Source: Flexibacter flexilis DSM 6793
GTDB taxonomy: Bacteria; Bacteroidota; Bacteroidia; Cytophagales; Flexibacteraceae
Direction of reading: 5' to 3'
Length of the DNA: 64,000 nt
NCBI RefSeq assembly: GCF_900112255.1
Contig: NZ_FOLE01000002.1
Location: 193,854-257,853 of the forward strand
The position numbers and the translations under genes were made by a program. The notes beneath the pieces were generated by a model. The model searched no databases and was not told the DNA's origin. It worked only from the letters and a program-made list of their open reading frames with translations. Every line of letters starts with the position of its first letter. The stretch's first letter is position 1. Positions 36,693 through 54,686 of the stretch are shown here, piece by piece.

Positions 36693-36766
36693 GGACACGT
36701 AGCTCAATTGGATAGAGCATCTGACTACGGATCAGAAGGTTTGGGGTTCGACTCCCTACGCGTCCA
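36693..36766 (+). tRNA. tRNA-Arg (anticodon ACG)
   Basis: 74-base cloverleaf: acceptor GGACACG / CGCGTCC with an A5-C68 mismatch, D-arm GCTC/GAGC, anticodon stem TCTGA/TCAGA with loop CTACGGA (anticodon ACG), T-loop TTCGACT. CCA is not encoded. Identical copy at 36843-36916. Confidence 0.95.
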
Positions 36767-36772
36767 CACAAC

Positions 36773-36842: not shown

Positions 36843-36916
36843 GGACACGTAGCTCAATTGGATAGAGCATCTGACTACGGATCAGAAGGTTTGGGGTTCG
36901 ACTCCCTACGCGTCCA
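36843..36916 (+). tRNA. tRNA-Arg (anticodon ACG), second identical copy
   Basis: Same 74 bases as the copy at 36693-36766, including the A5-C68 acceptor mismatch, and followed by a different flank. No matching promoter element was found directly ahead; it may be read through from the first copy. Confidence 0.95.
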
Positions 36917-36928
36917 CATAGTGTAAGT

Positions 36929-38246: not shown

Positions 38247-41200
38247 TTATTTACAATACTGGCGCAACATTTCTCTGGCCGAGTTGTTGCCGAGTTTCAC
38301 GGCTTTGTCCCAGTCTTGGCACGCGCCTACGAGGTCTGGCTCATCGAGTTGCAACTTCATGTTGGCGCGGCTGGTGTAGGCTTCCGCAAAGTTCGGGTTA
38401 AGCTGAATCGCTTTATCAAAATCCGCAAAAGAACTTTTCACGCCCGCGTCCGTAGTGTCTTTCAACGAGGCTTTGGCTAAAGCTCTGTAATAGTAAATAT
38501 TGGCGTTATTTGGTTCTATTTCAGCGGCTTTGTTGTAATCCGTGATTGCGCCTTCGTGGTCTTCCAAACCGATACGCGCTTGGCCGCGTTGCAAATAACC
38601 TCTGATAGATTTTGGCGAAAGTTTGATGTAATCGCTCAAATCCGCGATAGCATCATCAAATTTGTCAAGCTCAATGTAGGCCGACGCACGATAATAATAC
38701 GCTGCCGTGTCTTTGCTATCTTTCTTCAGTACCTCATCAAAATCTTTTACCGCTTCCGCGTAGCTCTGCAATCTATACAAGGCCAAGGCACTACCGAAAT
38801 AGGTTTTCTTGTCCGTGAACTTGTTCACAATAGCCAAATCAAAATTACTGATGGCTTTTTCGTAATCTTCTTGCACCAAATACGCATTGGCCAAGCCCGA
38901 ATACGCTTCGCCATTTTTAGGGTTAAAACTCAAGGCTTTGTTAAAATCTGCAACGGCATCGCGGTACTGTTTAAGGTTGGTTTTGGCCATTCCTCTAAAC
39001 GTATAAGCCTGAACATAAGCCGAATCCGCGGCAATGGCTTGGTCAAAATCGGCTACCGCACCCGCATTGTTGCCGAGCAAATACTTGGCTTTGCCGCGCC
39101 CAAACAACACCAATTTTTCTTTAGAACCCAAACCCGTAGCCTTGTCGAAATCCACGATAGCTGGTTCGTATTCTTTGAGGGCGAGTTTGGAAGTACCTCT
39201 GTGGCCGTAAGCGGCTGGCACGTCCAGAGCCAACGAAACTGATTTGCTGAAATCCTCAATCGCGTCTTTGTGGCGGCTTATCATTTGCAAAATCAAACCT
39301 TTGCGGTCGAAAAGTTGCGCATCTTCTGGCGAAAGCGTCGTCGCCTTGGTAAGGTCGGCGAGTGAACCCGTCGTGTCTTTCAACGCAAAACGAGCCTCTC
39401 CCCTGTTGGCAAATACTGGTCCCGTATTCAAGCCCATTTCGATGGCTTTGTTCAAATCTTTGGCCGAAACTTGGTATTCTTTCATGTTCAAATACGCCGT
39501 ACCACGATAGAAATACACGTTTTCGTCTTTCGTGCCTTTGTCCACTACTTTAGTCAAATACGGCACAGATTCGCGGTATTCTTTCAATTCCAAATGCGAA
39601 CGACCCGCCAAAACATTCAAGTCTTCGTCGTTTGGCGAATACTGCAAAGCTGTCGTCAGGTCTGTGAGTGCGCCTCTGTAATCGGCAGTTTTGAAACGAG
39701 ACAACGCCCTGTTGCTAAACGCTTTGATGTATTTCGGGTCAAGTTTCAGTGCCTCGTCAAAGTCGGCAATAGAAGCAGGGAACAAGTTTTGCAATTGCTT
39801 TGCCTTACCTCTGTTATTAAACAAAATAGCACTTTGATAGCCCATTTGTTGCGCCTTGTCGTAGTCGGCCACCGCACCCGTCAAGTCGTTGGTACGGAAC
39901 TTGGCGTTACCTCTATGGAAATAAATAGCATCGGTATTATTACCCAAATCAATGGCTTTGTTCAAATCCGTGAGCGAGGAGGCATAATTTTTGGTTTCGT
40001 ATTGCGCAATACCTCTGTTAGTGTAAAGTTCTACGACTTTCACGCCTGCGGCTTCGGCTTCTGTCAGGTCTGCCACCGCACCCGCGAAATCATTTTTCAC
40101 AAACTTAGACTGACCGCGCAAATGCAAAGCACGTGCGTTTTTGGGTTCTTGTGCAATCACTTTATTAAAATCCGTGATAGCCGCTTCGTAGTCTTTGAGC
40201 ATATAGCGGCTCTCGCCTCTGTTGCCTAACACTTTTACATCACTTACGCCCAACTCTACGGCTTTGGAAAGTGCCGTGTTGGCGGCGGTGTAGTCTTTCA
40301 ACTCAAAGTAAGCATTACCCAAATTCGAGAAAGAAATCTTTTCGTTTATGTTGTCGGCTGGCGTTACTTTTACCAAATCTTCGGTTGCGCCTTTGTAGTC
40401 TTTCAACTCATAGCGGGCATTACCACGCACATAATACGCCAACGGGTCTTGTGCCCCCAAATCAATAGCTTTGGTCGCATCGTCGGCAGCAGCTTTGTAA
40501 TCTTTTTGCACCCACTTAATAAAACCTCTGTTTGCGTAAGCATCTGGCAATTTGTTGTCAAGGCTTAAGGCTTTGTTAAAATCGGCCAATGCGCCCACGT
40601 TGTCGGTGGTTTTGAAACGTGCCTTACCACGCAAATTATACACTTGCGCAGTGTTTACGCCCAACGTGATGGCTTGCGAATAATCCGTAATAGAGTTTTT
40701 GTAGTCCTTTTGATTATAACGGGCGTTACCTCTGTTCAAGAAAACTAACTTGTCTTTAGAACCCAACGTAACGGCCTGATTCAGGTTTGGCAAAGCCGCC
40801 GCAAAGTCTTCTTTCTCGGCTTGCGCGTTACCCAAACTCGCATACATTCTCACCGATTGCGAGCCTTTTTCTTTGGCGGCTTTTAGGTTTTCAATGGCGG
40901 CAGTATAGTCTTTTTCTTCGTATTGCGCCAAGCCCAAATGCTCGAACAAATCGCGGTCGGTACGGCCTAATTCTTTGGCTTTCTCTAAGTTCGTGATGGT
41001 TGCTTTGTAATCTTTTTGTTGGAAATGCGAATTACCCAAAAAGAAAAACACTTCGCCGTTTTTGTCTTTCGTCTTGGCCGCAATGCTCAAATCTTCGATT
41101 GCACCTTTGTAGTCTTTGGTCAAATATTTGGCAGAACCTCTGTTGGCGTAAAACTCATCGGTTTTGTAGTCGGCTTCTGTTACTTTGTTCAAATCCACCA

Positions 41201-44200
41201 ACGCGCCTTTGTAATCTTTGGTAAAATATTTGGCCGAGCCTTTGGCAAACAAAAGTCGCTGTTCGCTTACGCCTGCTTGTTGTGCTTTGGTAAGCGTCTG
41301 GATAGCAGCCGCATACGCTTGCGTTTCAAATTCCGAAATACCGATTTTGTAGGTTGTTTCTTTGTCGGTCGCGCCTAATTTTTGGGCTTGTTTGAGGGCA
41401 GAAAGTGCCTGTTCGTATTCTTCCAACTCAAAAGCGGCATCGCCAAGCATGGCATACAAGGCCTTTGAATTTTTGCCCATTTTCTTAGCCAACTCCAAAT
41501 CCGTAACCGCATTTTTGTAGTCTTGTTGCTCATACAAAGCCAAACCACGATTGTAATGTACGGTTACGTCGCTGATACCACCCGTTACGGCTTTGTTCAA
41601 ATCCTCGATGGCTTTGGCGTATTGCTTTTGTGCTACCAACTCATTGCCGCGATGATAGAAAAGTTTGGGGTCGGTTGCGCCCAACGAAATGGCTTTGTCC
41701 AAATCTGGCAACGCTGCCGTAAACTGTTTTAACTCACAATACGACACGGCCAAACGCGTATGCAAGTCCAAATCCGAACTTCCCATACTTTTGGCTTTTT
41801 CCAAATCGGCTACCGCACCTTTGAAGTCTTTTTGCTCATAACGCGCCATACCACGATTGTAGAACGCTTCCGTGTTGCTTACGCCTTTGCCGATGGCTTT
41901 GGTAAGGTCGGCGATAGCTCCCGCATAATCTTTGGTAAAAAATTTGGCTTGGCCGCGTTGCTCATATACTTGCGCTGGCACGTCGGCGGCAGCACTGGCC
42001 GCAGGTTTCGCGCCTTTGGCTGGAACTTTAGCGGCGGCTGGAGCAGCAACAGGTTTTGGCACAGCCAAATCAAACGCCGCGATTGCGCCCGTATAATTTT
42101 TAAGTGCGTAGCGCGAATAACCCAAATGCGCGTACACTTCCGTTGATTTTTCGCCGCGTGCGATGGCTTGACTCAAATCTCTTTCGGCTTCGTCGTGTTT
42201 GTTGAGGTGATAATAACTCAAACCACGCATCAGCGAGACACTGCGCGAACTGTCGCCCAACTCGGCTGCTTTGTTCAGGTCAGCAATGGCATTGGTATAA
42301 TCTTTTTGGTCGAAAGAAGCCGTCGCACGTTGTTTGTAAATGCGTGGCTCAGTTGCACCCAACGAAATGGCTTTGGTCAATTCGGGCAGAGCCGCCGCGT
42401 ACTGTTTCAGTTCGCAATACGACAAAGCCAATTTGGTATGCAAATCCACGTCGCTACTGCCCAAGCCTTTAGCTTTCTCGAAGTCGGCGGCAGCACCTTT
42501 GTAGTCTTTCAGGGCATAACGCGCCATGCCTCTATCGTAATAAACATCAGCTTCATTAGCCCCCAATTCAATGGCTTTACTCAAATCCGCGTTGGCATCT
42601 GCGTAGTTTTTTTGTTCAAAACGCGACTTGCCTCTGCGTTCAAAAACGTGTGCCGTTTGCAAACCTGCGCCAATAGCTTGTGTATAAGCCGCTTCCGCCA
42701 ACTTGTATTTATTTTGCTCAAAACGTGCATCTGCCAAATGTTCAAACACTTTTTGGCTTTTTTCGCCCGCTTCTATGGCTTTGGCTAATTCGGTTTCGGC
42801 TTCGGCATAATTTTTCAATTCAAACAAACTCAAACCTTTAGCCAAATACACTTCTTTATCCGTTGCGCCTGCTTTTTCGGCTTCGCCCAAATCGGCAATA
42901 GCACCCGCGTAATCTTTGGTTTGGAATTTGGACAAACCGCGCGTAGCATACAACTTTTTGTTTTTGTCGGTAAGTTTATCTAAATCCGTGATAGCACCTG
43001 CATAGTCTTTTTGGTCATAACGCAAATAACCTCTGCTTTCGTAGGCTTCCGAATAATTGGCATCAAGGCCGATGGCTTTGGTGTAATCTTCCAACGCGCC
43101 TTGCGGATTGCCTGTTTGTTGTTTGGCTTTGCCTCTGTTATAAAAAACCAACGCTTCGGACACACCCAACGAAACGGCTTTGTCGTAGTCGGCAATCGCA
43201 CCCGCGTAATCTTTGAGCGAATAACGCGCCATGCCTCTGTCGTAATACACTTCTTTGTTGCTCGTGCCCAACTCGATGGCTTTGGAATAATCGGCGATGG
43301 CTTCCGTATAATTTTTTTGCTCGTAACGCGATTTGCCTCTACGTTCAAAAACGTGTGCCGTTTGCAAACCCGCGCCAATGGCTTGTGTATAAGCCGCTTC
43401 CGCCGATTTGTATTTGTTTTGCTCAAAACGTGCGTCGGCCAAATGCTCAAATACATTTTGGCTTTTCTCGCCCGCTTCTATGGCTTTAGCCAATTCTGTT
43501 TCGGCTTCCGCATAATTTTTCAATTCAAACAAACTCAAACCTTTGGCCAAATAAACTTCTTTGTCCGTTGCGCCTGCTTTTTCGGCTTCGCCCAAATCGG
43601 CAATGGCTCCATTGTAATCTTTGGTTTGGTATTTGGCCAAACCGCGCGTAACATAAAGCTTTTTGTTTTTGTCGGTAAGTTTATCCAAATCCGCGATGGC
43701 ACCTGCGTAGTCTTTTTGGTCGTAGCGCAAAAAACCTCTGTTTTCGTAGGCTTTCAGGTAGGCAGCATCGAGGGCGATGGCCTGCGTATAGTCTTCGAGT
43801 GCGCCTTGTGCGTTGGAAGTCAATTGTTTGGCTTTGCCTCTATTGTTATAAATTAAAGCCTCAGACACACCCAACGAAACGGCTTTGTCGTAGTCGGCAA
43901 TCGCACCCGCATAGTCTTCTTTGCGGAAACGCGAATTAGCACGTTGCACATATAGTTTTTTGTCAGCTACGCCCAACTGCTCAGCTTTAGTATAGTCGGC
44001 AATTGCGCCCGCGTATTCTTTGTTTTCGTAACGAACATTTCCGCGATAAAAATAAATATCCTTGTCGGCGATGTTCAGTTCTACGGCTTTATCAAAATCT
44101 TTTTCGGCTTCTTTGTATTGTTCTTGCTGATACAGAGCCAAACCGCGCCACAAATACAAGTTGGGCGGCGTGCTGTTTAGGCTAGCAGCTTTATTAAAAT

Positions 44201-45008
44201 CCGTAACCGCCGCAGGCAAATCTTTGAGTTGGTATTTGGCCGCACCGCGCAAATAGTAAGTACTTCCATTTTTGGCGTTGTTGATAAGCGATTCGTCGGC
44301 TTTGGTAACTACTTTTTGCCATTTCTGCTCCATGTACGAAGCCGCCGCACTCAAAAATGCACGGTCTTGACGGTAGTTGGTTATCCATTCCGTAACCGAC
44401 TGATTGCGTTGGGTCATGCGATTGGCCGAACGCATCGCATCCACAATGAACACATCATCCCCTACGCCCGTAATGGCAAAACCCACGAGTGTATTTTCTG
44501 CCGAAAGCACAGGACTACCGCTATGCATGGATAGTGTCGAGTTGGTTTGCATGGCATAACCGTAACCGTCTATCTGGGCAGCAAGGCTCAAAACCGCATC
44601 ATTTTTCATCATTTCCAAATAATCCGTCACATATTGCACGTTGATATTGGACTCTTGCTTGAGGCGCGTGGTCGTTACTTTAATAAACGGAAAAGGTTTG
44701 CCCGAAGGGTTACTCACCGAAAATTTTACCAACCCCGCCGATGCGTCGTCGGACAACACATTGGCTACATTGTACTTATCGCCATCGGTGTTGCGGGCTT
44801 GAATACGTGAAATATTGGGGTTTACAAACAAATCGGTTTGGGCAAGTAGCGTGCCGTTCGCATCCACAAAAACACCCGTACCATAGCCAAGCGGGGCATT
44901 GTTTTTGTCAAAAAACTGGAGCAAGACAATGGCTTTCTGCGATTTGGCTTGTGCAAAACTATTCCAGCAGATAAAAAGAGCTAATGCTACAACAAGGAGT
45001 CGTTTCAT
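38247..45008 (-). CDS. Giant TPR protein with an N-terminal trypsin-like (probably inactive) domain
   Basis: A 2,253-residue exported protein. Signal peptide KRLLVVALALFICWNSFAQA; residues about 25-215 are a trypsin/HtrA-like fold (GYGTGVFVDANGTLLAQTDLF, DDASAGLVKFSV, SMHSGSPVLS). The catalytic Ser (HSGSP) and an Asp are visible but the T-N-x-H-V His position reads AQTDLF, so it looks disabled. The remainder, about 230-2253, is close to sixty 34-residue tetratricopeptide repeats of the [Y-x-G-A-I-A-D-x-x-K-A] type. An Ala/Pro/Lys-rich linker lies near residues 983-1013, and residues about 365-599 and 600-834 are a tandem duplicate. Probably a periplasmic or surface scaffold; no function is known. 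Partners are unknown. Confidence 0.92.
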   Translation of the reverse strand: MKRLLVVALALFICWNSFAQAKSQKAIVLLQFFDKNNAPLGYGTGVFVDANGTLLAQTDLFVNPNISRIQARNTDGDKYNVANVLSDDASAGLVKFSVSNPSGKPFPFIKVTTTRLKQESNINVQYVTDYLEMMKNDAVLSLAAQIDGYGYAMQTNSTLSMHSGSPVLSAENTLVGFAITGVGDDVFIVDAMRSANRMTQRNQSVTEWITNYRQDRAFLSAAASYMEQKWQKVVTKADESLINNAKNGSTYYLRGAAKYQLKDLPAAVTDFNKAASLNSTPPNLYLWRGLALYQQEQYKEAEKDFDKAVELNIADKDIYFYRGNVRYENKEYAGAIADYTKAEQLGVADKKLYVQRANSRFRKEDYAGAIADYDKAVSLGVSEALIYNNRGKAKQLTSNAQGALEDYTQAIALDAAYLKAYENRGFLRYDQKDYAGAIADLDKLTDKNKKLYVTRGLAKYQTKDYNGAIADLGEAEKAGATDKEVYLAKGLSLFELKNYAEAETELAKAIEAGEKSQNVFEHLADARFEQNKYKSAEAAYTQAIGAGLQTAHVFERRGKSRYEQKNYTEAIADYSKAIELGTSNKEVYYDRGMARYSLKDYAGAIADYDKAVSLGVSEALVFYNRGKAKQQTGNPQGALEDYTKAIGLDANYSEAYESRGYLRYDQKDYAGAITDLDKLTDKNKKLYATRGLSKFQTKDYAGAIADLGEAEKAGATDKEVYLAKGLSLFELKNYAEAETELAKAIEAGEKSQKVFEHLADARFEQNKYKLAEAAYTQAIGAGLQTAHVFERRGKSRFEQKNYADANADLSKAIELGANEADVYYDRGMARYALKDYKGAAADFEKAKGLGSSDVDLHTKLALSYCELKQYAAALPELTKAISLGATEPRIYKQRATASFDQKDYTNAIADLNKAAELGDSSRSVSLMRGLSYYHLNKHDEAERDLSQAIARGEKSTEVYAHLGYSRYALKNYTGAIAAFDLAVPKPVAAPAAAKVPAKGAKPAASAAADVPAQVYEQRGQAKFFTKDYAGAIADLTKAIGKGVSNTEAFYNRGMARYEQKDFKGAVADLEKAKSMGSSDLDLHTRLAVSYCELKQFTAALPDLDKAISLGATDPKLFYHRGNELVAQKQYAKAIEDLNKAVTGGISDVTVHYNRGLALYEQQDYKNAVTDLELAKKMGKNSKALYAMLGDAAFELEEYEQALSALKQAQKLGATDKETTYKIGISEFETQAYAAAIQTLTKAQQAGVSEQRLLFAKGSAKYFTKDYKGALVDLNKVTEADYKTDEFYANRGSAKYLTKDYKGAIEDLSIAAKTKDKNGEVFFFLGNSHFQQKDYKATITNLEKAKELGRTDRDLFEHLGLAQYEEKDYTAAIENLKAAKEKGSQSVRMYASLGNAQAEKEDFAAALPNLNQAVTLGSKDKLVFLNRGNARYNQKDYKNSITDYSQAITLGVNTAQVYNLRGKARFKTTDNVGALADFNKALSLDNKLPDAYANRGFIKWVQKDYKAAADDATKAIDLGAQDPLAYYVRGNARYELKDYKGATEDLVKVTPADNINEKISFSNLGNAYFELKDYTAANTALSKAVELGVSDVKVLGNRGESRYMLKDYEAAITDFNKVIAQEPKNARALHLRGQSKFVKNDFAGAVADLTEAEAAGVKVVELYTNRGIAQYETKNYASSLTDLNKAIDLGNNTDAIYFHRGNAKFRTNDLTGAVADYDKAQQMGYQSAILFNNRGKAKQLQNLFPASIADFDEALKLDPKYIKAFSNRALSRFKTADYRGALTDLTTALQYSPNDEDLNVLAGRSHLELKEYRESVPYLTKVVDKGTKDENVYFYRGTAYLNMKEYQVSAKDLNKAIEMGLNTGPVFANRGEARFALKDTTGSLADLTKATTLSPEDAQLFDRKGLILQMISRHKDAIEDFSKSVSLALDVPAAYGHRGTSKLALKEYEPAIVDFDKATGLGSKEKLVLFGRGKAKYLLGNNAGAVADFDQAIAADSAYVQAYTFRGMAKTNLKQYRDAVADFNKALSFNPKNGEAYSGLANAYLVQEDYEKAISNFDLAIVNKFTDKKTYFGSALALYRLQSYAEAVKDFDEVLKKDSKDTAAYYYRASAYIELDKFDDAIADLSDYIKLSPKSIRGYLQRGQARIGLEDHEGAITDYNKAAEIEPNNANIYYYRALAKASLKDTTDAGVKSSFADFDKAIQLNPNFAEAYTSRANMKLQLDEPDLVGACQDWDKAVKLGNNSAREMLRQYCK
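41967..42062 (-). other. Ala/Pro/Lys-rich linker within the giant TPR gene
   Basis: Codes for a low-complexity segment (AVPKPVAAPAAAKVPAKGAK, then PAASAAADVPAQ) inserted inside a repeat that otherwise runs from ...GAIAAFDLA to YEQRGQAKFFTKDY. It looks like a flexible hinge between two TPR superhelices. Confidence 0.8.
42506..43915 (-). repeat. Two tandem copies of a 705 bp unit in the giant TPR gene
   Basis: Units about 42506-43210 and 43211-43915. The words CACACCCAACGAAACGG (43161 and 43866) and ACGTGTGCCG (42646 and 43351) recur exactly 705 bases apart, and the intervening text is over 90% identical by eye, with mainly third-base changes. The unit codes for 235 residues, about seven TPRs. 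Boundaries are approximate. Confidence 0.85.
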
Positions 45009-45156: not shown

Positions 45157-46128
45157 TTAGCCAATGTACGCCGACAAATCAAGGTCGTTCATACATTTGA
45201 AATGCTTTTGGGGGCAATGATTATAACCAATTTTGGAACAAGGTCGGCAACTCAATTCTTTATTTTCGATGACTACATAGTCGGTTCGGTACGGGTACAT
45301 TCCCAGCAGCGGCGTGGTATTACCCCAAATCGAATAGATTTTTTTGTGCAAAGCCGCCGCAATATGCATCAGGCCTGTGTCGTGGCTGTACACCACTTGC
45401 GCCTGTTGCAACAGCGATGCCGACTGATTCAAATTGAATTTTCCACAAGCATTAAAAACCTTGTTGGGCTGATTATTGGCCAAGAAATATTCTTCAATTT
45501 TCTGCGCCACGACAATGTCTTCTTTGCCGCCAAGCAGCGTAACAGGAGCGGGTATTCGTTGGCAAAGTTCTATGAGTTTATGCAGTGGCAGACGTTTGGT
45601 AAAATGCTGCGCACCAATGGCAATGGCGGCGTATCCGTTGCGATGCGAAGTGGGAATATCGCAAGGTTGCACCACGTCTTTTTCAGGAATAAAATAGTCC
45701 AAACCCTCTTGGTCGGTGTGTACACCCAACGGCGCGACGGTGGCCATGTATCTGTCCACGATGTGCATGGCTGGCATTCGGTTGATTTTGAAACGAACCA
45801 AAAGCCATTTTTCCATATTCAATTTATCAAAACTATACGCCTTCACGCCCAACGCCAACTTAATGCGCAAGGTGCGCAAGTTGTGGTGCAAGTCAATAAT
45901 GTAATCATATTTTTCTGATTTCCATTGCTTAAGCAATTGAGGCAAATTGTTTTTTTCGAGCAAATACAGTTTGTCAATATACGGATTGTCGGCCAACACA
46001 ACTTTGAAAGGTTGTTTGGTGGCATAATGAATTTCTATGTTGGGGATTTGCTTTTTGAGTGCACGCACAACAGGTGTAGTCAGGACAATATCTCCAATCG
46101 AAGAAAAACGAAGAACAAGAACTTTCAA
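45157..46128 (-). CDS. GT9 glycosyltransferase (heptosyltransferase-like)
   Basis: A 323-residue GT-B enzyme of family 9. N-terminus MKVLVLRFSSIGDIVLTTPVVRALK with the family S-x-G-D motif, ADNPYIDKLYLLEKN near residue 50, an ADP-sugar domain with AIAIGAQHFTKRLPL near 176, and the C-terminal SHDTGLMHIAAALHKKIYSIWG motif near 261. Relatives add heptose or a hexose to the LPS inner core. A cluster of Cys and His (CRPCSKIGYNHCPQKHFKC) sits at the C-terminus, as in other Bacteroidota GT9 proteins. Single gene with TATCTTTG upstream and terminator downstream. Confidence 0.92.
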   Translation of the reverse strand: MKVLVLRFSSIGDIVLTTPVVRALKKQIPNIEIHYATKQPFKVVLADNPYIDKLYLLEKNNLPQLLKQWKSEKYDYIIDLHHNLRTLRIKLALGVKAYSFDKLNMEKWLLVRFKINRMPAMHIVDRYMATVAPLGVHTDQEGLDYFIPEKDVVQPCDIPTSHRNGYAAIAIGAQHFTKRLPLHKLIELCQRIPAPVTLLGGKEDIVVAQKIEEYFLANNQPNKVFNACGKFNLNQSASLLQQAQVVYSHDTGLMHIAAALHKKIYSIWGNTTPLLGMYPYRTDYVVIENKELSCRPCSKIGYNHCPQKHFKCMNDLDLSAYIG

Positions 46129-46259: not shown

Positions 46260-49200
46260 CTATTCTTTCACTAATCGTAAATGTTCCACTTGGTCGTTGA
46301 GTTGCAATTGGATAATGTACACGCCCGACGCCAAAGACGAAATTGTCTGGTTAAGCGAACGGTTCAGGTGCATAATATCGCCTTGCGCTACTGACAACTG
46401 ACGGCCTTCGGCACTAATCACTTGCATCATGATTGGGCTTTCGGAAGCCGTGCCAAGCATTTGCAAATTCACGTAACTAGTAGCAGGGTTCGGACTCAAC
46501 GCAAAGTTGGCGGTTAGCTTTCCTTTTTGTTCGAGGTAAACCGCATGACTATACGTTACTTCTCCGTCTATGTCCACTTGCGCCAAACGGTAGTATGCTT
46601 TTCCTGTAAAATATTGGTCGGCAAAACCGTAACGCTGTGAAGCAGAGCTTGTGCCTACACCCGACACGAAACCAATGCTTTCGTAGTGTTTGCCATCAGC
46701 CGAACGCTCTACGCGGAAGCCTTTATTTTGGTATTCGAAAGCCGTAATCCATTGCAATTGCGCTACGTTTCCTTGCAAATAACCCGTGAAAGAAACCAAA
46801 GTTACAGGCAAAGTATTGATGTCGTCGCTTACTGTCCAATCCGAGAAACCAGAAGTAGAAACACTCACTGTACGCATACCATTTACAACAGAAGGAGACT
46901 GTACAGTTCCTACCTGTTCCCAATCAGTAGCTCCTTCAGGAAGACGATACACTTGCGAACTAGTCGAAGCATTTGTACCATTATCATCATCGGCAGGCCA
47001 TGCCAAAGACAAGCCCAAAGCTCCAGAAGGTTGTGCCGTTGGTTTGATACGCCACAAACGCGCAATCCCTGCATTCGCTCCAAAAGTAACCGCATGAGAT
47101 GAGCCAGCGAAACGATATGCACGAACCGTTCCTAAATCGCTTGGCGACGAACTAACATTGACACCAATGTTACCAAAGTTAGAGCTACCGCCATTACCGA
47201 CCGTGCGAGTTGCTTTTACAATACCTTGTACATATCGAGTATTTACATTAGCCGTTTCGCCAGTGATAGTGCCCGTAGTACCCAAATCCAAAGTATCGTT
47301 GGTCGTATAAATACCACCAGAGGCAGGGCTTGATGAAAACGAAACTGTTCCTGCCACCGCCAATGAACCAAACAATGACATACCATTCAGGCGTTTGATG
47401 CTTACATTACCCAAACCACCCGTAGGCGTTGGCAAAATCAAACGTGCCGTAGTTCCGTCTATTTGTTCTACCGAAAGATGACTCGTTGTGCCACCCGTAA
47501 GGCCACCGTTTGTCCAGTTGATTGCACCTTTAAGGGCGAGTGTATTTCCATTACCAATATTCAAAGTTCCTTCAGGCAAATTACATTCGTCGTTAATGGT
47601 AAGGTTACTACCTAAAGTTACGCCACCAGAAGAGGTTCTGTTCAAAGTAAAATCATCAAAGCCACCTGTAGAACGAAGCGTACCCACAGCACCCGAACCA
47701 TTAATAACAAGGTCTGAGTTAGAGCCTTTAGCCTGGATAACACCACTTGCCCCTGTCATTACGCCAGACTCCAACGTTAGTGTATAGCTATTGATATTGA
47801 GCGTACCAGCAGGATAATCAAGCGCAGTACCCAACGCACCGCGCAACGTAACATCGCCTAACATAACCAACGTATTACCCGTACGATTTACGATGAGTTT
47901 GTCATAGCTACCAGTCGGCACATTGGTACCACCTGTGCCTGTATATTCGAGCGTAGAGCCATTGGCTGTACCATCTAAAATACCCGCAACAACATCTAAT
48001 GAACCATTATTGAGCGTTATTTTCTTACCGTTCATGTTTAATGTACCCGAAGTAAGCGTGAGTGCGGTGTTGGCACTAATGTCATTGTTGAGTATCACAC
48101 CACCCGAGTTAGCCACATCCAATGAACGGAAAGCCAATGTGCCTGATGCTTGTGTCAATTGTGCTAGACTACTACCTTTCATTGTTACCACGCCTGCGGT
48201 ATGTGTAAACGTACCTTGATTATTAAAATCACCATATACATTCAAGTTACCGCCACTACCACCAGTATTGGCAATGGTCAAGGATTTAGTAGAAGCAATT
48301 GTAATGTTATGACATTTAGCGGTAGCCGTGTCAATTACTATATTGTTTGGTGCAGTACTTACCATCGTAACATCTGTTGCTTCTTCAGGAATAGTTAGGC
48401 TTTGCCAGTTGCGACATTCAAACCAATTGGAATTGGTCGTCCCCTCCCAAACACCTGCTTCAAAAGCACCAGCCCCAATTGAAATCGAATAGCCGCCACG
48501 ATAGTTAGGGCCACCCGAATTATAATTGGATGCGCTCGTATAAGGAGTCCAATTGCCCGAACCTTGAATACGTTGTATCCAGCCGCGCTTAGATGTTTCC
48601 GTTACAGGGCCAGTATATTTATAATAGTTATTTACAGTTCCTGAGTTCGGATTATACGAAATGAAACAATCCATATCAGAAGGCTTACCAGAATTTTGAG
48701 TACCTCCTCCAGCACTGTTAGTACAAGTAGGTGTCCAAATATCACCTTTGGTATTAAACACATACAAAATACGACCACCTACATACAAATCATCACCATA
48801 ATTAACGTTTGTAGGGCCTGTGCCATTATCATCAAGTGTGCCACCTTGTAAGAAAAAGATTTGCTCACCGTTACTATTCAAATTGAAATTACCAGTGTTA
48901 GAAGACATACCCGTAAAAGTCCACGTGCTACCTGCTGGAGAAATACAAGACGAACCCGTATAGCTTGTAGGGCCACCACCCGAAATCACCATGGTAATGA
49001 CGGTACCAGCTGCAATAGTTGAGCCACTAGTAAAGGTCATACGTGCCCAGCCTTCAGATTCTCCAAAAGCATTCAGTATATAATTCGTACTTGAAGGAGA
49101 CGCAATACCAGGTGTACATTTGTTATAAGAATTATCAGTAATATCAATTACAGTACCTGGAATCAAATCTTTAAAACAAACAAAACTTATTTCATCATCG

Positions 49201-52200
49201 CTTCCAATATTGCTTGTATTAAAACCAAGAATAGCCAAATCGCCTTGTTCCAAGAACGTACCTTCTACAATATGCAACGTATGCGTGTGGTCAGTACTAC
49301 TAATGATTGCATTACTTGGCACAGAGGCAATACTAAAGACTACTTTGCTGTTTGTTGTTTTGGGATTTGTATTAGTTTCGTCATCATTAATGTTAATATT
49401 GAATGTTGCGGATGATTGACCAACCGTAATAGGTATAGTAACCGTGCTCCCCGCTTTGGCTGGAGAGGTCGTATAATCATCGGGAGAAGTACCACCATAA
49501 GTCAAATCTGTTTCTGAAACATTAAGTACGATATTACCCGATACCGCCGCCGCAGGCACTATATCAAGCGTTACGGTATAGCTACTGCCCACCGCTTCAC
49601 CTTTATACTCTTCGGTGCTGGCAAAACTAACAACCGAAGCCGCATCGTCATCCGTAATGGTGAAAGTAAAGACTTTAGCATTATTATCTATATAAATAGC
49701 CCCTGCGTTTGCAATCGTCAACACTACATCTTCATTTGGCTCGTCCACCGCATCGCGCGTAATGTTAATAGGCAAATTGATAGTAGCAGGCGTAGTAATT
49801 GTCCCTGTACGCAACGTAAGCACATTACCCACATACGAAACTTTAGTCAGGCCACTACCTGGCGTACCAAAATCATAATCCGTACCGTTGCCAGTAGCTG
49901 CACCCGAAAGGTTAATCACAATGTTTTCATTCGCAGGAACATTACCGAAAAAGCGCAATGCAATGTTATAAGTGGAAGTTCCCGCACCCGTTCCTTCTGC
50001 AAGACTTGCATCAGCAAGACTAAATTTCACGGAAGGTGAAACAATCGTATGTGAAGCACCCGCCGCAACAGAGATAGTACCCGAAGTTGGGCTACCCGAA
50101 AACGTCAAGTCGCTAAAGCTAGTCATACTAACACCTACCGTTTTATTAGAAGCGGCATTATCAATACGAATGTTGGCGGTTATAAAGAAATAAACAGAGT
50201 CTGAAGCACTAATCGTTTGAGACAAACCATCGAACAATAAAGAACCACCAGACGCAGCTGTTAGTGGTGTACCGATTTCGGTATCTGTTGTAGTACTGAA
50301 ACTATTATTGGCAGAAACCCACAATCTAAAGGAAGTAACATCTAATTCTGCATAAGTTCCTTGTGTTGTCAATCGAATAGACTGCAATGTAGCGGTGCTT
50401 CCATTGGCTTTCAAAGCTACACGATACAATACATTATTTTGTGAACCCAAAGTAGGTTGTGAACTCGGACTTGGATCTTTGGCATTTACCGAAACACTTG
50501 GCGGCGTGGCCTGAGTACCTGTCAGAGTAAAGTTATACGGATTTTCATCTGTATCATTAGTAGTAAACGAGAAGGTTGCACTATGCGCACCATCTACACC
50601 CGCAGGAGAAAAGCGAATAATAATGTTGGTATTTTCGCCAGCAGCAACTGTAATAGGGAATATACCCACACCTCCCACTATACTAAATTCTGAAGCATTT
50701 GCTCCGCCAAATACTGGGGAAGAAATAATCAAATCGCCTGAGCCTGTATTAGAAATAACAAATATTTTCTCTTGCTGACCGCCGATACTTGCCGTACCGA
50801 AGGCTACACTACCCGAACCATCTGGTATGTTTGTACCATTTTGTTCTACCACAATTTCAGGCAATACTTTTGCTGTAAAATTAACTACATACGGATTTTC
50901 GCTACCGCTATTATCGCTGTGCGCGATACTTACATTACCCGTAAAAGTACCTGTTACGCCCGAATTAAAACGTACCGTAAATGTTGTGCTGTCTCCAGCG
51001 TTTACACTGGCAGCAGGCGAGGACACGAGGCTATAACCTGTTCCCGTTACGGTAGTAGTTGAAATAGTCAACGCAGCAACTCCTGTATTTTTGATCGTAA
51101 AAACCACGTCTGTATTAGCACTTTGTTGTGCAAAACCAAAATTATAAGTGTTGGCAGTGTTATAATTCGTACCAAGTTGTTTTACTTGAATTTCTGGTTG
51201 GCAAGTAAGTGGTGCATCACCTGTCGCAATCACTTTGGCCGTAACTCCTGTATTGGGATTTACGGTACTTACACCGTTCCAGTTACCATCTGCATCAGTG
51301 GCGGCACAACCTACCACGTTGCCTGTCGTACGGCTTAGTGCCGCTATATAACGAACACCATTCGTGTTAGTATTGGGAATAATAGCACCCCAAGCACCAG
51401 CAACACCATCTACATTAGTATCATAATAATCTACATAATCGGCAGCGGTTACTGTATTGCCATCACTTTCGATAAATGTACAATACAACGGACGGCCAGT
51501 ACCCGCCATGTTGCTACTGAGCAGTACAAAATCCTGTGCAGTACCCAACGATGTAGAACGAATGCCCGTTACATTAGAAGCCGCAGAACCGAAAGCAACT
51601 GCTGTCATGGTTAGTTTGGTAGTAAGATATAAAGCTGGCGTGCTTCCTCCTGCCCCATCGTTAAGCGCAATACGCACATAAACATTATTGCCTGCCGTAA
51701 ACGTAGCATTCTGAGTTGGTTCTGTGATAAACCAGCCAGTATAATTACCGCGCGAGTCTGTCGTAATATTTATATAATTAGTGCTAATACTCGTAGCATT
51801 TGTATAAACAAAATTGCCTGAAGTAGGAACAAAATACGCATTGCCCGCACCTGCATTGTTATAATCATCAGTAGCCACAACGCAACCGTTAACTGCACGA
51901 TAAGTTGTATTAGCCAAAAGCCCAGACAAAGTAAGGCGATATGCCACAGGCACACGGTTATTACCTGAAGCCGTTGGGTACGCTACATATTGAGGAAAAA
52001 GTGTTTCGTCTATACCGTAAAACTGAATCGCGCTGCTGGCCGCCGAAGTCGTAAGGCTCATGCCGCTGGTTGCTGCTGCCATGAATTGCACTCCACTTTC
52101 GATGCCGTCGTAAGTAGTCGTAATCGTTACACTACTTGCGCCCGCTGCGATAATGCCCGTAATAGTAGTTAAGCTACCCGAACCATTGGCCACACTCAAA

Positions 52201-54686
52201 GTAACAGTAGTCGCAGTGCTTACTGAGCGAACATTATTGCTAGCATCTTGCGCCTGCACCGTAACACTAAAGTTTTGACCTGCTGTATAAGCAGATACAG
52301 GTGCAACAAAAGACGTACCCGTAATCGCTAATTTACTAGCGACCGTTGGGGTAGCAAATGCCGTTGGGATTGTGGCTGCCGTTCTATAATTATATGTTCC
52401 AATGTTAGACAAATTCCAGTTGAAAGGAATAAGCGAATAGTAATAAGTAGTACCTGCTGTAAGTCCCGTAATGGCTTGGGTTGTTGCTGAGCTACTTGTT
52501 ACGATAGCGGCAATCGTTCCGTCGCCGATAGTACCACCAACCGTATAAGCCGTAGCATCTGTCGGCGTACCCGTAGGAGCTGAGCCTACTTTTTGTAAAA
52601 TAATATAACCATCAGCTCCAAATGTAGTGGCAGTCTGGAACGTAAGGTCAATTTGCGAACCACTTACCGCCGAAGCCGATAACGTAGAATGTGCCGTAGG
52701 TTCTGTACTTAACGTCCAGAAATTACCCGCCAACGCTGTTGGGCTATAACAAGATGTAGCCGTTAGGTATTCGTAAAGATTCACATAATAGTGTGTTTCT
52801 GGAGAAAGACTTGTTACACCAAAAGTAGCTGCCGTACCATCATAAACGGCAAAACCACTACCCACTGCGCCCCCCGAACCAAAAGCCGTATTGGCTGCAT
52901 AAACATTACCAGAAACGGGGTTTGCGGGAGAAGAACCAGCACCCACAACACCTAATATTTTATCGCCATTACCGCGTGTATAATTGGCCGTTACGCTATT
53001 AGCTGTGATACTACCAAATGTAAGAGCGGAGGCTTGTGTGGTTGGAGAAACGCAAGGAACATAACAGGTCCAAGACATATCGTCGAATGTAATACGTGAG
53101 CCGTCCGAACGAAGTTCTATGCTCACCGAACCGCCTACATTTACCGTAATGTTAGAAACTTGCACGCCCGAAGTCGGAACAATCGCCGAGCCGTATTGTG
53201 TGCCATTTACCCAAACCGTAAACGATGGAGAAGATTCTGAAAACGGAATTTTATGCGAAACAGTAATTACACCACAACCACCCGTAACAGTAGGTGTCGT
53301 TAGTATTCCTCTTACAGTAATGGCTTTACCCGTAATGGTTTGGTCGGTACGAGAATTGGTTACAGACCAACTTGCACCATCATCACCAACCCATGTGTAA
53401 GGATTATAAGAACTTGATGCAGTAGGAATATTAGTAAACGATTCAGTATCACAATTACTTGAAGCTGAAACTGTCGTAAAACTCCATGTAGTAGAACCGC
53501 TAAATCCAGCAAAGAAATTACCAGACAAATCTTGTACGGCAGTGGCGGGTATTTCTACATAATAAGCTGTACTAGCGGCCAAATCCGAAGCAGGATTGAT
53601 CGTAAGCGTGGCAGAAGAAACCGTAACGGCAGCAGAGGTTACATCAATCGTTTGCACTACGCTATTATCCGAAACTTTTTTAATCAAAATATTGCCCGTG
53701 CCTTTGGCTATGCTTTCGCTGAATGTTACAGCCAAATCCGAATTAACCGCTACACTCGTTGCACCATTGGTTGGCGAAAAAGAACTTGCTGTCGGAGCAG
53801 TAGCATCGGCAGCAGCAGTCGTAAAGTTCCAAGCAGTAGCCCCACTAATGCCTGCATAAAAATTACCAGCCAAATCTTGTACCGCAGTAGCAGGTATTTC
53901 TACATAATAAGCTGTACCAGCCGTCAAGTCTGAAGGCGGATTAATTGTAAGTGTAGCTGACGAAATGGTTACTGCCGCAGACGTTACGTCTATGGTTTGT
54001 ACTACGCTGTTATCCGAAACTTTTTTAATCAAAATATTGCCTGTGCCTTTGGCAATGTTTTCGCTAAAAGTTACTCCCAAGTTAGTGCTAATCGCTACAT
54101 TGGTTGCATTATCAAGTGGCGAAAATGTACTGGCTGTTGGTGGCGTTACGTCGGAAGCTGCAACTGTAATTGAAAAATCATCAAGGTATAATTGGTTACT
54201 TCCTCCCGAACGTCCATCTATTACCCTAACACATATATTGCTAAATGAAGACAAATCTGCGGTAAATGTTTGATAACTAGTGGTAAATGAAGTAATTGGG
54301 TTTGCTCCTGTAGTAACATTAGCCGATGGCAAATTCGTCCAAGGACCTGCCTGAGAAGTACTTGTTTGAACCGTAAATTTAGGGCTTGTAGGAGCCGTAC
54401 CACTTCTTCTCCAATAAAATGTCAAAACATCAGGGCTGGCAACAATTGGCGTAATAATAGCATCGTTAGCAGCATCAAATGTAGCACATTTAGAACCATT
54501 TCTTGGATTATTTGTACCGTGAGCAACAGAAACATAAGACCAGCCCGCAGGAGGAGGAGTCGCACCTTCAAAGCCTTCCGTTATCTGCCCAAACACTGGT
54601 GCACCACTCATCATAACCAATAATATCAGCATCAGACTCAGTCGCTGCACACTATTTGTTATACAATTAATGTATATTTTTCTCAT
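46260..54686 (-). CDS. Giant modular surface protein with T9SS type A sorting domain
   Basis: A 2,808-residue exported protein. Order: signal peptide (residues about 10-34); a MAM/cleaved-adhesin-like jelly roll beginning ITEGFEGATPPPAGW; two near-identical Ig-like SbsA/Big_5 domains (about 180-405); FN3-like modules (about 545-775); a Big_1-like domain; two choice-of-anchor D (ASH) modules around NTGVAALTIS and ISNTGSGDLIIS; two Calx-beta modules (SLADASLAEGTG, then STEEYKGEAVGSS); a parallel beta-helix stretch with ALTLTSGTLNMNGKKITL; and a C-terminal T9SS sorting domain (NFALSPNPATSYVNLQML ... ASGVYIIQLQLNDQVEHLRLVKE). It should cross the outer membrane by type IX secretion and act as adhesin or matrix protein. 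Confidence 0.93.
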   Translation of the reverse strand: MRKIYINCITNSVQRLSLMLILLVMMSGAPVFGQITEGFEGATPPPAGWSYVSVAHGTNNPRNGSKCATFDAANDAIITPIVASPDVLTFYWRRSGTAPTSPKFTVQTSTSQAGPWTNLPSANVTTGANPITSFTTSYQTFTADLSSFSNICVRVIDGRSGGSNQLYLDDFSITVAASDVTPPTASTFSPLDNATNVAISTNLGVTFSENIAKGTGNILIKKVSDNSVVQTIDVTSAAVTISSATLTINPPSDLTAGTAYYVEIPATAVQDLAGNFYAGISGATAWNFTTAAADATAPTASSFSPTNGATSVAVNSDLAVTFSESIAKGTGNILIKKVSDNSVVQTIDVTSAAVTVSSATLTINPASDLAASTAYYVEIPATAVQDLSGNFFAGFSGSTTWSFTTVSASSNCDTESFTNIPTASSSYNPYTWVGDDGASWSVTNSRTDQTITGKAITVRGILTTPTVTGGCGVITVSHKIPFSESSPSFTVWVNGTQYGSAIVPTSGVQVSNITVNVGGSVSIELRSDGSRITFDDMSWTCYVPCVSPTTQASALTFGSITANSVTANYTRGNGDKILGVVGAGSSPANPVSGNVYAANTAFGSGGAVGSGFAVYDGTAATFGVTSLSPETHYYVNLYEYLTATSCYSPTALAGNFWTLSTEPTAHSTLSASAVSGSQIDLTFQTATTFGADGYIILQKVGSAPTGTPTDATAYTVGGTIGDGTIAAIVTSSSATTQAITGLTAGTTYYYSLIPFNWNLSNIGTYNYRTAATIPTAFATPTVASKLAITGTSFVAPVSAYTAGQNFSVTVQAQDASNNVRSVSTATTVTLSVANGSGSLTTITGIIAAGASSVTITTTYDGIESGVQFMAAATSGMSLTTSAASSAIQFYGIDETLFPQYVAYPTASGNNRVPVAYRLTLSGLLANTTYRAVNGCVVATDDYNNAGAGNAYFVPTSGNFVYTNATSISTNYINITTDSRGNYTGWFITEPTQNATFTAGNNVYVRIALNDGAGGSTPALYLTTKLTMTAVAFGSAASNVTGIRSTSLGTAQDFVLLSSNMAGTGRPLYCTFIESDGNTVTAADYVDYYDTNVDGVAGAWGAIIPNTNTNGVRYIAALSRTTGNVVGCAATDADGNWNGVSTVNPNTGVTAKVIATGDAPLTCQPEIQVKQLGTNYNTANTYNFGFAQQSANTDVVFTIKNTGVAALTISTTTVTGTGYSLVSSPAASVNAGDSTTFTVRFNSGVTGTFTGNVSIAHSDNSGSENPYVVNFTAKVLPEIVVEQNGTNIPDGSGSVAFGTASIGGQQEKIFVISNTGSGDLIISSPVFGGANASEFSIVGGVGIFPITVAAGENTNIIIRFSPAGVDGAHSATFSFTTNDTDENPYNFTLTGTQATPPSVSVNAKDPSPSSQPTLGSQNNVLYRVALKANGSTATLQSIRLTTQGTYAELDVTSFRLWVSANNSFSTTTDTEIGTPLTAASGGSLLFDGLSQTISASDSVYFFITANIRIDNAASNKTVGVSMTSFSDLTFSGSPTSGTISVAAGASHTIVSPSVKFSLADASLAEGTGAGTSTYNIALRFFGNVPANENIVINLSGAATGNGTDYDFGTPGSGLTKVSYVGNVLTLRTGTITTPATINLPINITRDAVDEPNEDVVLTIANAGAIYIDNNAKVFTFTITDDDAASVVSFASTEEYKGEAVGSSYTVTLDIVPAAAVSGNIVLNVSETDLTYGGTSPDDYTTSPAKAGSTVTIPITVGQSSATFNININDDETNTNPKTTNSKVVFSIASVPSNAIISSTDHTHTLHIVEGTFLEQGDLAILGFNTSNIGSDDEISFVCFKDLIPGTVIDITDNSYNKCTPGIASPSSTNYILNAFGESEGWARMTFTSGSTIAAGTVITMVISGGGPTSYTGSSCISPAGSTWTFTGMSSNTGNFNLNSNGEQIFFLQGGTLDDNGTGPTNVNYGDDLYVGGRILYVFNTKGDIWTPTCTNSAGGGTQNSGKPSDMDCFISYNPNSGTVNNYYKYTGPVTETSKRGWIQRIQGSGNWTPYTSASNYNSGGPNYRGGYSISIGAGAFEAGVWEGTTNSNWFECRNWQSLTIPEEATDVTMVSTAPNNIVIDTATAKCHNITIASTKSLTIANTGGSGGNLNVYGDFNNQGTFTHTAGVVTMKGSSLAQLTQASGTLAFRSLDVANSGGVILNNDISANTALTLTSGTLNMNGKKITLNNGSLDVVAGILDGTANGSTLEYTGTGGTNVPTGSYDKLIVNRTGNTLVMLGDVTLRGALGTALDYPAGTLNINSYTLTLESGVMTGASGVIQAKGSNSDLVINGSGAVGTLRSTGGFDDFTLNRTSSGGVTLGSNLTINDECNLPEGTLNIGNGNTLALKGAINWTNGGLTGGTTSHLSVEQIDGTTARLILPTPTGGLGNVSIKRLNGMSLFGSLAVAGTVSFSSSPASGGIYTTNDTLDLGTTGTITGETANVNTRYVQGIVKATRTVGNGGSSNFGNIGVNVSSSPSDLGTVRAYRFAGSSHAVTFGANAGIARLWRIKPTAQPSGALGLSLAWPADDDNGTNASTSSQVYRLPEGATDWEQVGTVQSPSVVNGMRTVSVSTSGFSDWTVSDDINTLPVTLVSFTGYLQGNVAQLQWITAFEYQNKGFRVERSADGKHYESIGFVSGVGTSSASQRYGFADQYFTGKAYYRLAQVDIDGEVTYSHAVYLEQKGKLTANFALSPNPATSYVNLQMLGTASESPIMMQVISAEGRQLSVAQGDIMHLNRSLNQTISSLASGVYIIQLQLNDQVEHLRLVKE
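53540..54150 (-). repeat. Two tandem 345 bp units coding for Big_5/SbsA-like Ig domains
   Basis: The word TATCCGAAACTTTTTTAATC recurs at 53666 and 54011, exactly 345 bases (115 residues) apart. Both units encode FSPxxxATxVAxxxxLxVTFSE, ILIKKVSDNSVVQTIDVTSA and YYVEIPATAVQDLxGNF. The units are the most alike part of this gene; borders are approximate. Confidence 0.85.

Follow-up and report, generated by a model that had tools for sequence, protein, structure and literature searches.

The window analyzed here, a stretch of 64,000 nucleotides from Flexibacter flexilis DSM 6793, carries on its minus strand (positions 38247 to 45008) the gene for a giant protein in which a pseudoprotease head precedes a very long TPR solenoid. 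We judge the chances to be about even that this protein is an exported, noncatalytic binding scaffold, with the head seated on a TPR superhelix like that of O-GlcNAc transferase (OGT). The open reading frame had been proposed in an earlier note on this DNA, which gave no strand; it is real and runs from ATG to stop over 2,253 aa. By eye, it begins with a type I signal peptide (approximately aa 1 to 20; positions 44949 to 45008, minus strand) in which no lipobox was seen, and on this basis the protein is predicted to be exported. A promoter scan upstream of the gene returned two sites, against 2.7 expected from shuffles.

The head domain

The head (aa 25 to 205; positions 44394 to 44936, minus strand) had been described as trypsin-like, and its assignment as a degenerate trypsin/HtrA-type domain is borne out by PF13365, by a profile comparison with the PDB, by Foldseek, and by the alignment of the triad. 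The Trypsin_2 profile (PF13365) matched aa 43 to 176 over positions 1 to 143 of its 144, scoring 27.9 bits when the head was scanned alone (E = 4.6e-6; Pfam cut-off, 27.6), 29.2 bits in the genome search, and 23.3 bits, below the cut-off, in the whole-protein scan. With a profile of seven related heads, the best match among PDB sequences was the S1C domain of RsgI9 (E = 9e-9), with DegP reaching E = 0.003 at best. Foldseek with the head model likewise placed RsgI9 S1C (7sjy) at the top (E = 1.1e-7), with DegS, DegP, and HtrA1 next; these four matches spanned E values of 1e-7 to 1e-5 at TM scores of about 0.35 to 0.42, obtained with a 288-residue model in which confidence for the head was low. 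The AlphaFold model of head plus TPRs had a pLDDT of 64.9 overall and of about 38 to 68 in the blocks of the head, and because of this low confidence the fold assignment rests on the sequence profiles and Foldseek together. VIA-align of the head model gave a list filled by matches to the TPR part and uninformative on the head, and a viral structure search with the head model returned generic trypsin-fold matches only. No PDZ domain, a usual component of HtrA proteins, was found at an E value of 0.1 in a Pfam scan of the whole protein. Anti-phage defence was rejected as a role, as the head had no PADLOC match at an E value of 0.01; a match of the short relative L040 to RT-Protease_XI was read as reflecting its trypsin-like part only.

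Alignment with active relatives placed the triad sites of the window giant at D59 (His site; positions 44832 to 44834), G92 (Asp site; positions 44733 to 44735), and S163 (Ser), all on the minus strand. Two motifs stand as the earlier note quoted them, namely AQTDLF in place of TNxHV, with D59 at the His position, and HSGSPV with the Ser retained as S163. The claim that the head also keeps an Asp fails for the triad: the Asp in question is D88, invariant in seven heads and located four residues N-terminal to the triad site, where a 'DLAV'-type motif has given way to 'GLVK' (in AGLVKF) and the residue is Gly. In MHSGSPV (aa 161 to 167; positions 44508 to 44528, minus strand), M161 occupies what we take, from numbering by the GNSGG motif, to be the position of the oxyanion Gly. 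As the oxyanion Gly is gone along with two residues of the triad, the case for a dead head is stronger than originally claimed, and neither of the outcomes named in advance as refuting it, an intact triad or a head without a trypsin fold, was found. Across the 11 giants identified (see below), the His is lost in every one (D, N, S, or E instead), as is the triad Asp, which is Gly throughout; the Ser is kept in the window giant only and is absent from the other 10. These residues were read from a table of 46 trypsin-type domain rows, from which L030, L031, L055, L064, L065, L067, and L068 (short or not extractable), as well as L074, L075, and L083 to L095, were left out. Intact triads were present in 18 of the 43 rows that entered the tree, including L007, an HtrA of the same genome and one of its four strong Trypsin_2 proteins besides the giant. 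Together, the substitutions suggest that the head of the giant is catalytically inactive; the Ser kept in the window copy is a point against this reading.

The TPR solenoid

The estimate of about sixty TPRs agrees with a step-constrained decomposition, which yielded 59 repeats (aa 214 to 2243; positions 38280 to 44369, minus strand) with a single Ala/Pro-rich linker among them (aa 990 to 1011, minus strand). A simpler decomposition found 55 TPRs scoring above 10, compared to 0 in each of 20 shuffles. The protein ends in a cap, ACQDW...QYC(K), with two Cys (positions 38250 to 38324, minus strand), which is present in 11 of 11 giants. In a model of the last 834 residues (aa 1420 to 2253), the TPRs were continuous, with a pLDDT of 92.7; its best alignments among PDB entries were to O-GlcNAc transferase (7ntf, Z of 28.9; 6eou, 342 residues at 4.7 Å) and a consensus TPR superhelix (8chy, 272 residues at 2.5 Å). 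The model suggests that a right-handed superhelix of this O-GlcNAc-transferase/consensus-TPR type may extend over the whole length of the solenoid. At the 7 to 8 TPRs and about 72 Å per turn given for such a superhelix in an excerpt of PMC4191447, 59 TPRs would make about 7.4 to 8.4 turns and span 53 to 61 nm. Identities as MamA, PrsT, LcrH/SycD, or PilW were not adopted because the NCBIfam cut-offs were passed only by summing many repeats; the MamA model, for example, reached 443.8 bits against a cut-off of 200, but from 13 stretches, which we read as repeat inflation rather than membership.

The solenoid also contains an internal duplication (positions 42562 to 43566, minus strand), whose copies, 42562 to 42861 and 43267 to 43566, lie 705 nt apart, corresponding to 235 aa or exactly seven TPRs. 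The copies are 88% identical over 300 nt, with 37 mismatches, and since the longest exact run is 35 nt, an assembly collapse is unlikely. A seven-repeat signal in the window giant mostly reflects this recent duplication, as its z value fell from 9.2 to 1.8 when the first 20 repeats were removed (47 of 1,000 permutations were as high as 1.8). In the five members with 40 repeats, z was 2.0 to 3.8, which, as these are close kin, amounts to about one observation, and G005, with 33 repeats, showed no seven-repeat periodicity (z of −1.4).

A marker TPR with the motif RGKA, mostly NNRGKAK, often recurs 7 to 8 repeats apart, or about once per superhelical turn. In the window giant it is found at repeats 5, 12, 36, 44, and 51 of 59, that is, on the minus strand, at aa 384 to 417 (YNNRGKAKQ; positions 43758 to 43859), 619 to 652 (43053 to 43154), 1454 to 1487 (40548 to 40649), 1727 to 1760 (39729 to 39830), and 1965 to 1998 (39015 to 39116). 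The five 40-repeat members carry it at repeats 5, 18, 25, and 32, one of them with an extra copy at 8, and G005 at repeats 4, 11, and 19. Spacings of 7 or 8 were seen in 13 to 14 steps' worth of arrays, the exceptions being 24 in the window giant and 13 in the others. Conservation of the marker TPRs above the rest was weak (one-sided p of 0.005 to 0.10 in seven comparisons), and the comparison is partly circular, as the markers are defined by four residues. We regard the once-per-turn marker as a lead and not as a result. Following this lead, one may imagine the dead head as the anchor of a molecular ruler or holdase in the periplasm, with a solenoid that lengthens in steps of whole superhelical turns and the seven-TPR duplication as the unit. 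A YNNRGKAK TPR (N5/N6/K9-type groove residues) about once per turn would align groove residues in a stripe along which a single long extended ligand could lie, giving an exported bacterial protein its own version of the asparagine ladder of OGT. We consider this elaboration unlikely.

Distribution and history of the giants

In a sample of 390 genomes of the order, searched with a profile of the window head plus one relative, giants were present in seven, with open frames of 1,400 to 2,258 codons; the profile, built from two giants, recovered the other five. These seven belong to two families, with two in the 11 searched genomes of the window's own family and five in another. Because the gene is this rare, it is not a core part of the envelope. 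When named genomes were scanned with one of these five, the hits were Marivirga sericea, which proved identical to G309, and four additional records (three under the label Marivirga, the fourth a 'Bacteroidetes bacterium' MAG), so that there are 11 distinct giants of 1,361 to 2,253 aa in all. No others were seen in samples of 395 genomes each for the class and the phylum, with 6 to 8 candidates scored per genome; the longest open frames at a match there, besides the window, were 778 and 670 aa. A later search with a profile containing giants showed an E-value gap from 1.8e-58 to 4.7e-27, again among 6 to 8 scored candidates per genome and partly by construction. The search for the same layout of head plus TPRs, proposed in the earlier note, thus led to 11 giants in one clade, and its remark that no named family applies agrees with our scans, in which no Pfam or NCBIfam model covered the combination. 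Trypsin-TPR fusions and pseudoproteases are each already known; among open-licence PMC papers we found no description of the giant dead-head form, its clade, or the order of events.

By the step-constrained decomposition, repeat numbers were 33, 40, and 59, with 40 in five Marivirga-type members. Across the 15 pairs formed by six Marivirga-type coding sequences, the head had a pN of 0.08 to 0.35 compared to a pS of 0.56 to 0.81; dS was saturated in most pairs, and the single pair with dS near 1 gave dN/dS values of 0.08 (head) and 0.04 (TPR part). In the Marivirga-type members, to which these measurements apply, purifying selection acts on the dead head, and a pN so far below pS indicates that it is not a merely decayed domain.

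The history of the head was traced in a tree of 43 domains, for which L057, L058, and L062 of the triad table had been dropped beforehand. The 11 giants formed one clade (support, 98/95), and its sister (94/93) was L040, a protein of 447 aa with six TPRs by the same scoring, which has neither His nor Asp but retains an intact Ser motif, GSSGSPV. Since this nearest relative is short and also without His and Asp, the head probably lost both residues before the solenoid grew to 30 to 59 repeats. Loss of the Ser most likely came later than that of His and Asp, and outside the window lineage. Another group of dead heads belongs to exported proteins of about 570 aa with few TPRs from other families of the class (L042, L043, L044, L046, L048, L049, L051, L052, and L053); here the His was lost in nine of nine, the Asp kept in nine of nine, and the Ser lost in eight of nine. 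The best tree has two origins of dead heads, but a single origin was not rejected (p-AU of 0.109). Other arrangements were also noted: L041 and L045 have His, Asp, and Ser all changed and end in a C-terminal stretch of about 300 aa that is not made of TPRs, and L050, beside them, has kept His and Asp but not Ser. In L020, L022, L025, and L032 (350 to 368 aa, same order), an intact trypsin triad lies behind an N-terminal region that by eye resembles a thermonuclease-type domain.

Possible functions and gene surroundings

If the giant is a scaffold, its head would have descended from a serine protease of the HtrA/S1C type and, having lost His, Asp, and the oxyanion Gly, would be retained as a binding domain and not as an enzyme. 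The head may serve for anchoring or for the capture of a partner protein or extended peptide, while in the periplasm the TPR groove, given its length, may accommodate an extended polypeptide or more than one partner; a polypeptide as the ligand and the periplasm as the site are guesses. Precedents in favour of the scaffold are MamO, RsgI9 S1C, and the TPR groove of OGT, all described below. Like HtrA/Deg (S1C) proteases, the giant has a trypsin-type head fold (by profile and Foldseek) and a predicted export signal, but it lacks His, Asp, the oxyanion Gly, and a PDZ domain (Pfam scan) and has 59 TPRs instead. The same order of parts is seen in short exported Bacteroidota proteins with a head and then TPRs (L028, L040, L056, and L059), which differ in having 4 to 9 TPRs and, except for L040, a kept triad. 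The TPRs are of the same superhelix type as those of OGT by structure alignment, and the TPR groove of OGT is described as binding extended peptide in an excerpt of PMC10618255; the giant differs in having no transferase domain, in its 59 TPRs compared to about 13 in OGT (same excerpt), and in being bacterial and putatively exported.

The best PDB match of the head, in the S1C-NTF2 bidomain of RsgI9 from Clostridium thermocellum, raises the alternative of a glycan sensor or binder, in which the head would bind polysaccharide as RsgI9 S1C is reported to do and the TPRs would relay or display it. In an excerpt of PMC12203970, this protease-like S1C domain is reported to be capable of binding cellulose. 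Against this, a common fold shows no common ligand, and DegS, DegP, and HtrA1 stand close behind RsgI9 in the same lists. RsgI9 itself is an anti-sigma factor of the membrane that carries an NTF2-like domain but no TPR solenoid, whereas in the giant the Pfam scan found no RsgI N-terminal, transmembrane, or anti-sigma domain and no transmembrane helix was seen by eye. We consider a glycan role improbable, and we are similarly doubtful that the size of the protein mainly reflects neutral TPR growth, with repeat slippage adding length that has no function. The varying repeat numbers and the duplicated seven-TPR block at 88% DNA identity fit such growth; against it stand the retention of 40 repeats by five Marivirga-type members, purifying selection on the TPR part in that group, and a reading frame that stays open for 6.8 kb.

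The head might also act as a pseudoenzyme that binds an active protease of the HtrA type in its own cell and regulates it. The precedent is MamO of Magnetospirillum, a degenerate HtrA-type protease described in an excerpt of PMC4794232 as working through binding and through the activation of MamE; it resembles the giant's proposed head in the use of such a domain for binding, but differs in that it binds metal and activates MamE in magnetosomes and has no TPR array of giant size (the magnetosome TPR protein MamA, distinct from MamO, is read as only a TPR match to the giant). Candidate partners exist among the four strong Trypsin_2 proteins of the genome, L007 with an intact triad among them, but the giant showed no gene linkage to any of these, and we hold this activity to be rather unlikely. 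Finally, a residual or altered hydrolase, in which S163 would work with another residue such as the adjacent H162 as an esterase or slow protease, is very improbable: S163 is kept in an HSGSPV close to the GSSGSPV of active relatives and of L040, but the triad Asp and the oxyanion Gly are lost too, the other 10 giants have no Ser, and, according to the same excerpt of PMC4794232, the oxyanion site is strongly disfavoured from taking its active form when position 193 is not Gly.

Whereas pseudoproteases have been known one by one, in the present small family catalytic death and then giant solenoid growth can be located on a tree, and short relatives, some dead and some active, are available for comparison with the giants. 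It offers testable cases both for the passage from protease to scaffold and for the growth of very long TPR superhelices. A typical periplasm is narrower than the 53 to 61 nm that 59 TPRs would cover if straight, which raises a question of layout.

Gene neighbours gave no clue, as by eye the Marivirga-type members have other neighbours than the window giant. A divergent gene resembling (by eye) an isoaspartyl peptidase/asparaginase adjoins the giant in four of five Marivirga-type loci but is not found at G279, at G005, or in the window. Directly upstream of the giant, on the same strand, lies a glycosyltransferase family 9 (heptosyltransferase) gene (PF01075; positions 45157 to 46128, minus strand). 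Two genes upstream, also on the same strand, positions 46260 to 54686 (minus) encode a secreted protein of 2,808 aa that ends in a T9SS type A sorting domain (TIGR04183; 31.6 bits, cut-off 23), and the genome thus encodes T9SS cargo. The giant itself was rejected as such cargo, as Pfam and NCBIfam scans of the whole protein found no type A sorting domain; this result and the lack of a lipobox by eye count in favour of the scaffold reading. As to a likeness with SprE/PorW, a TPR lipoprotein of the T9SS, no SprE model was named among the NCBIfam results of the giant. On the plus strand, two tRNA-Arg(acg) genes of equal Rfam score lie 150 nt apart at positions 36693 to 36767 and 36843 to 36917.
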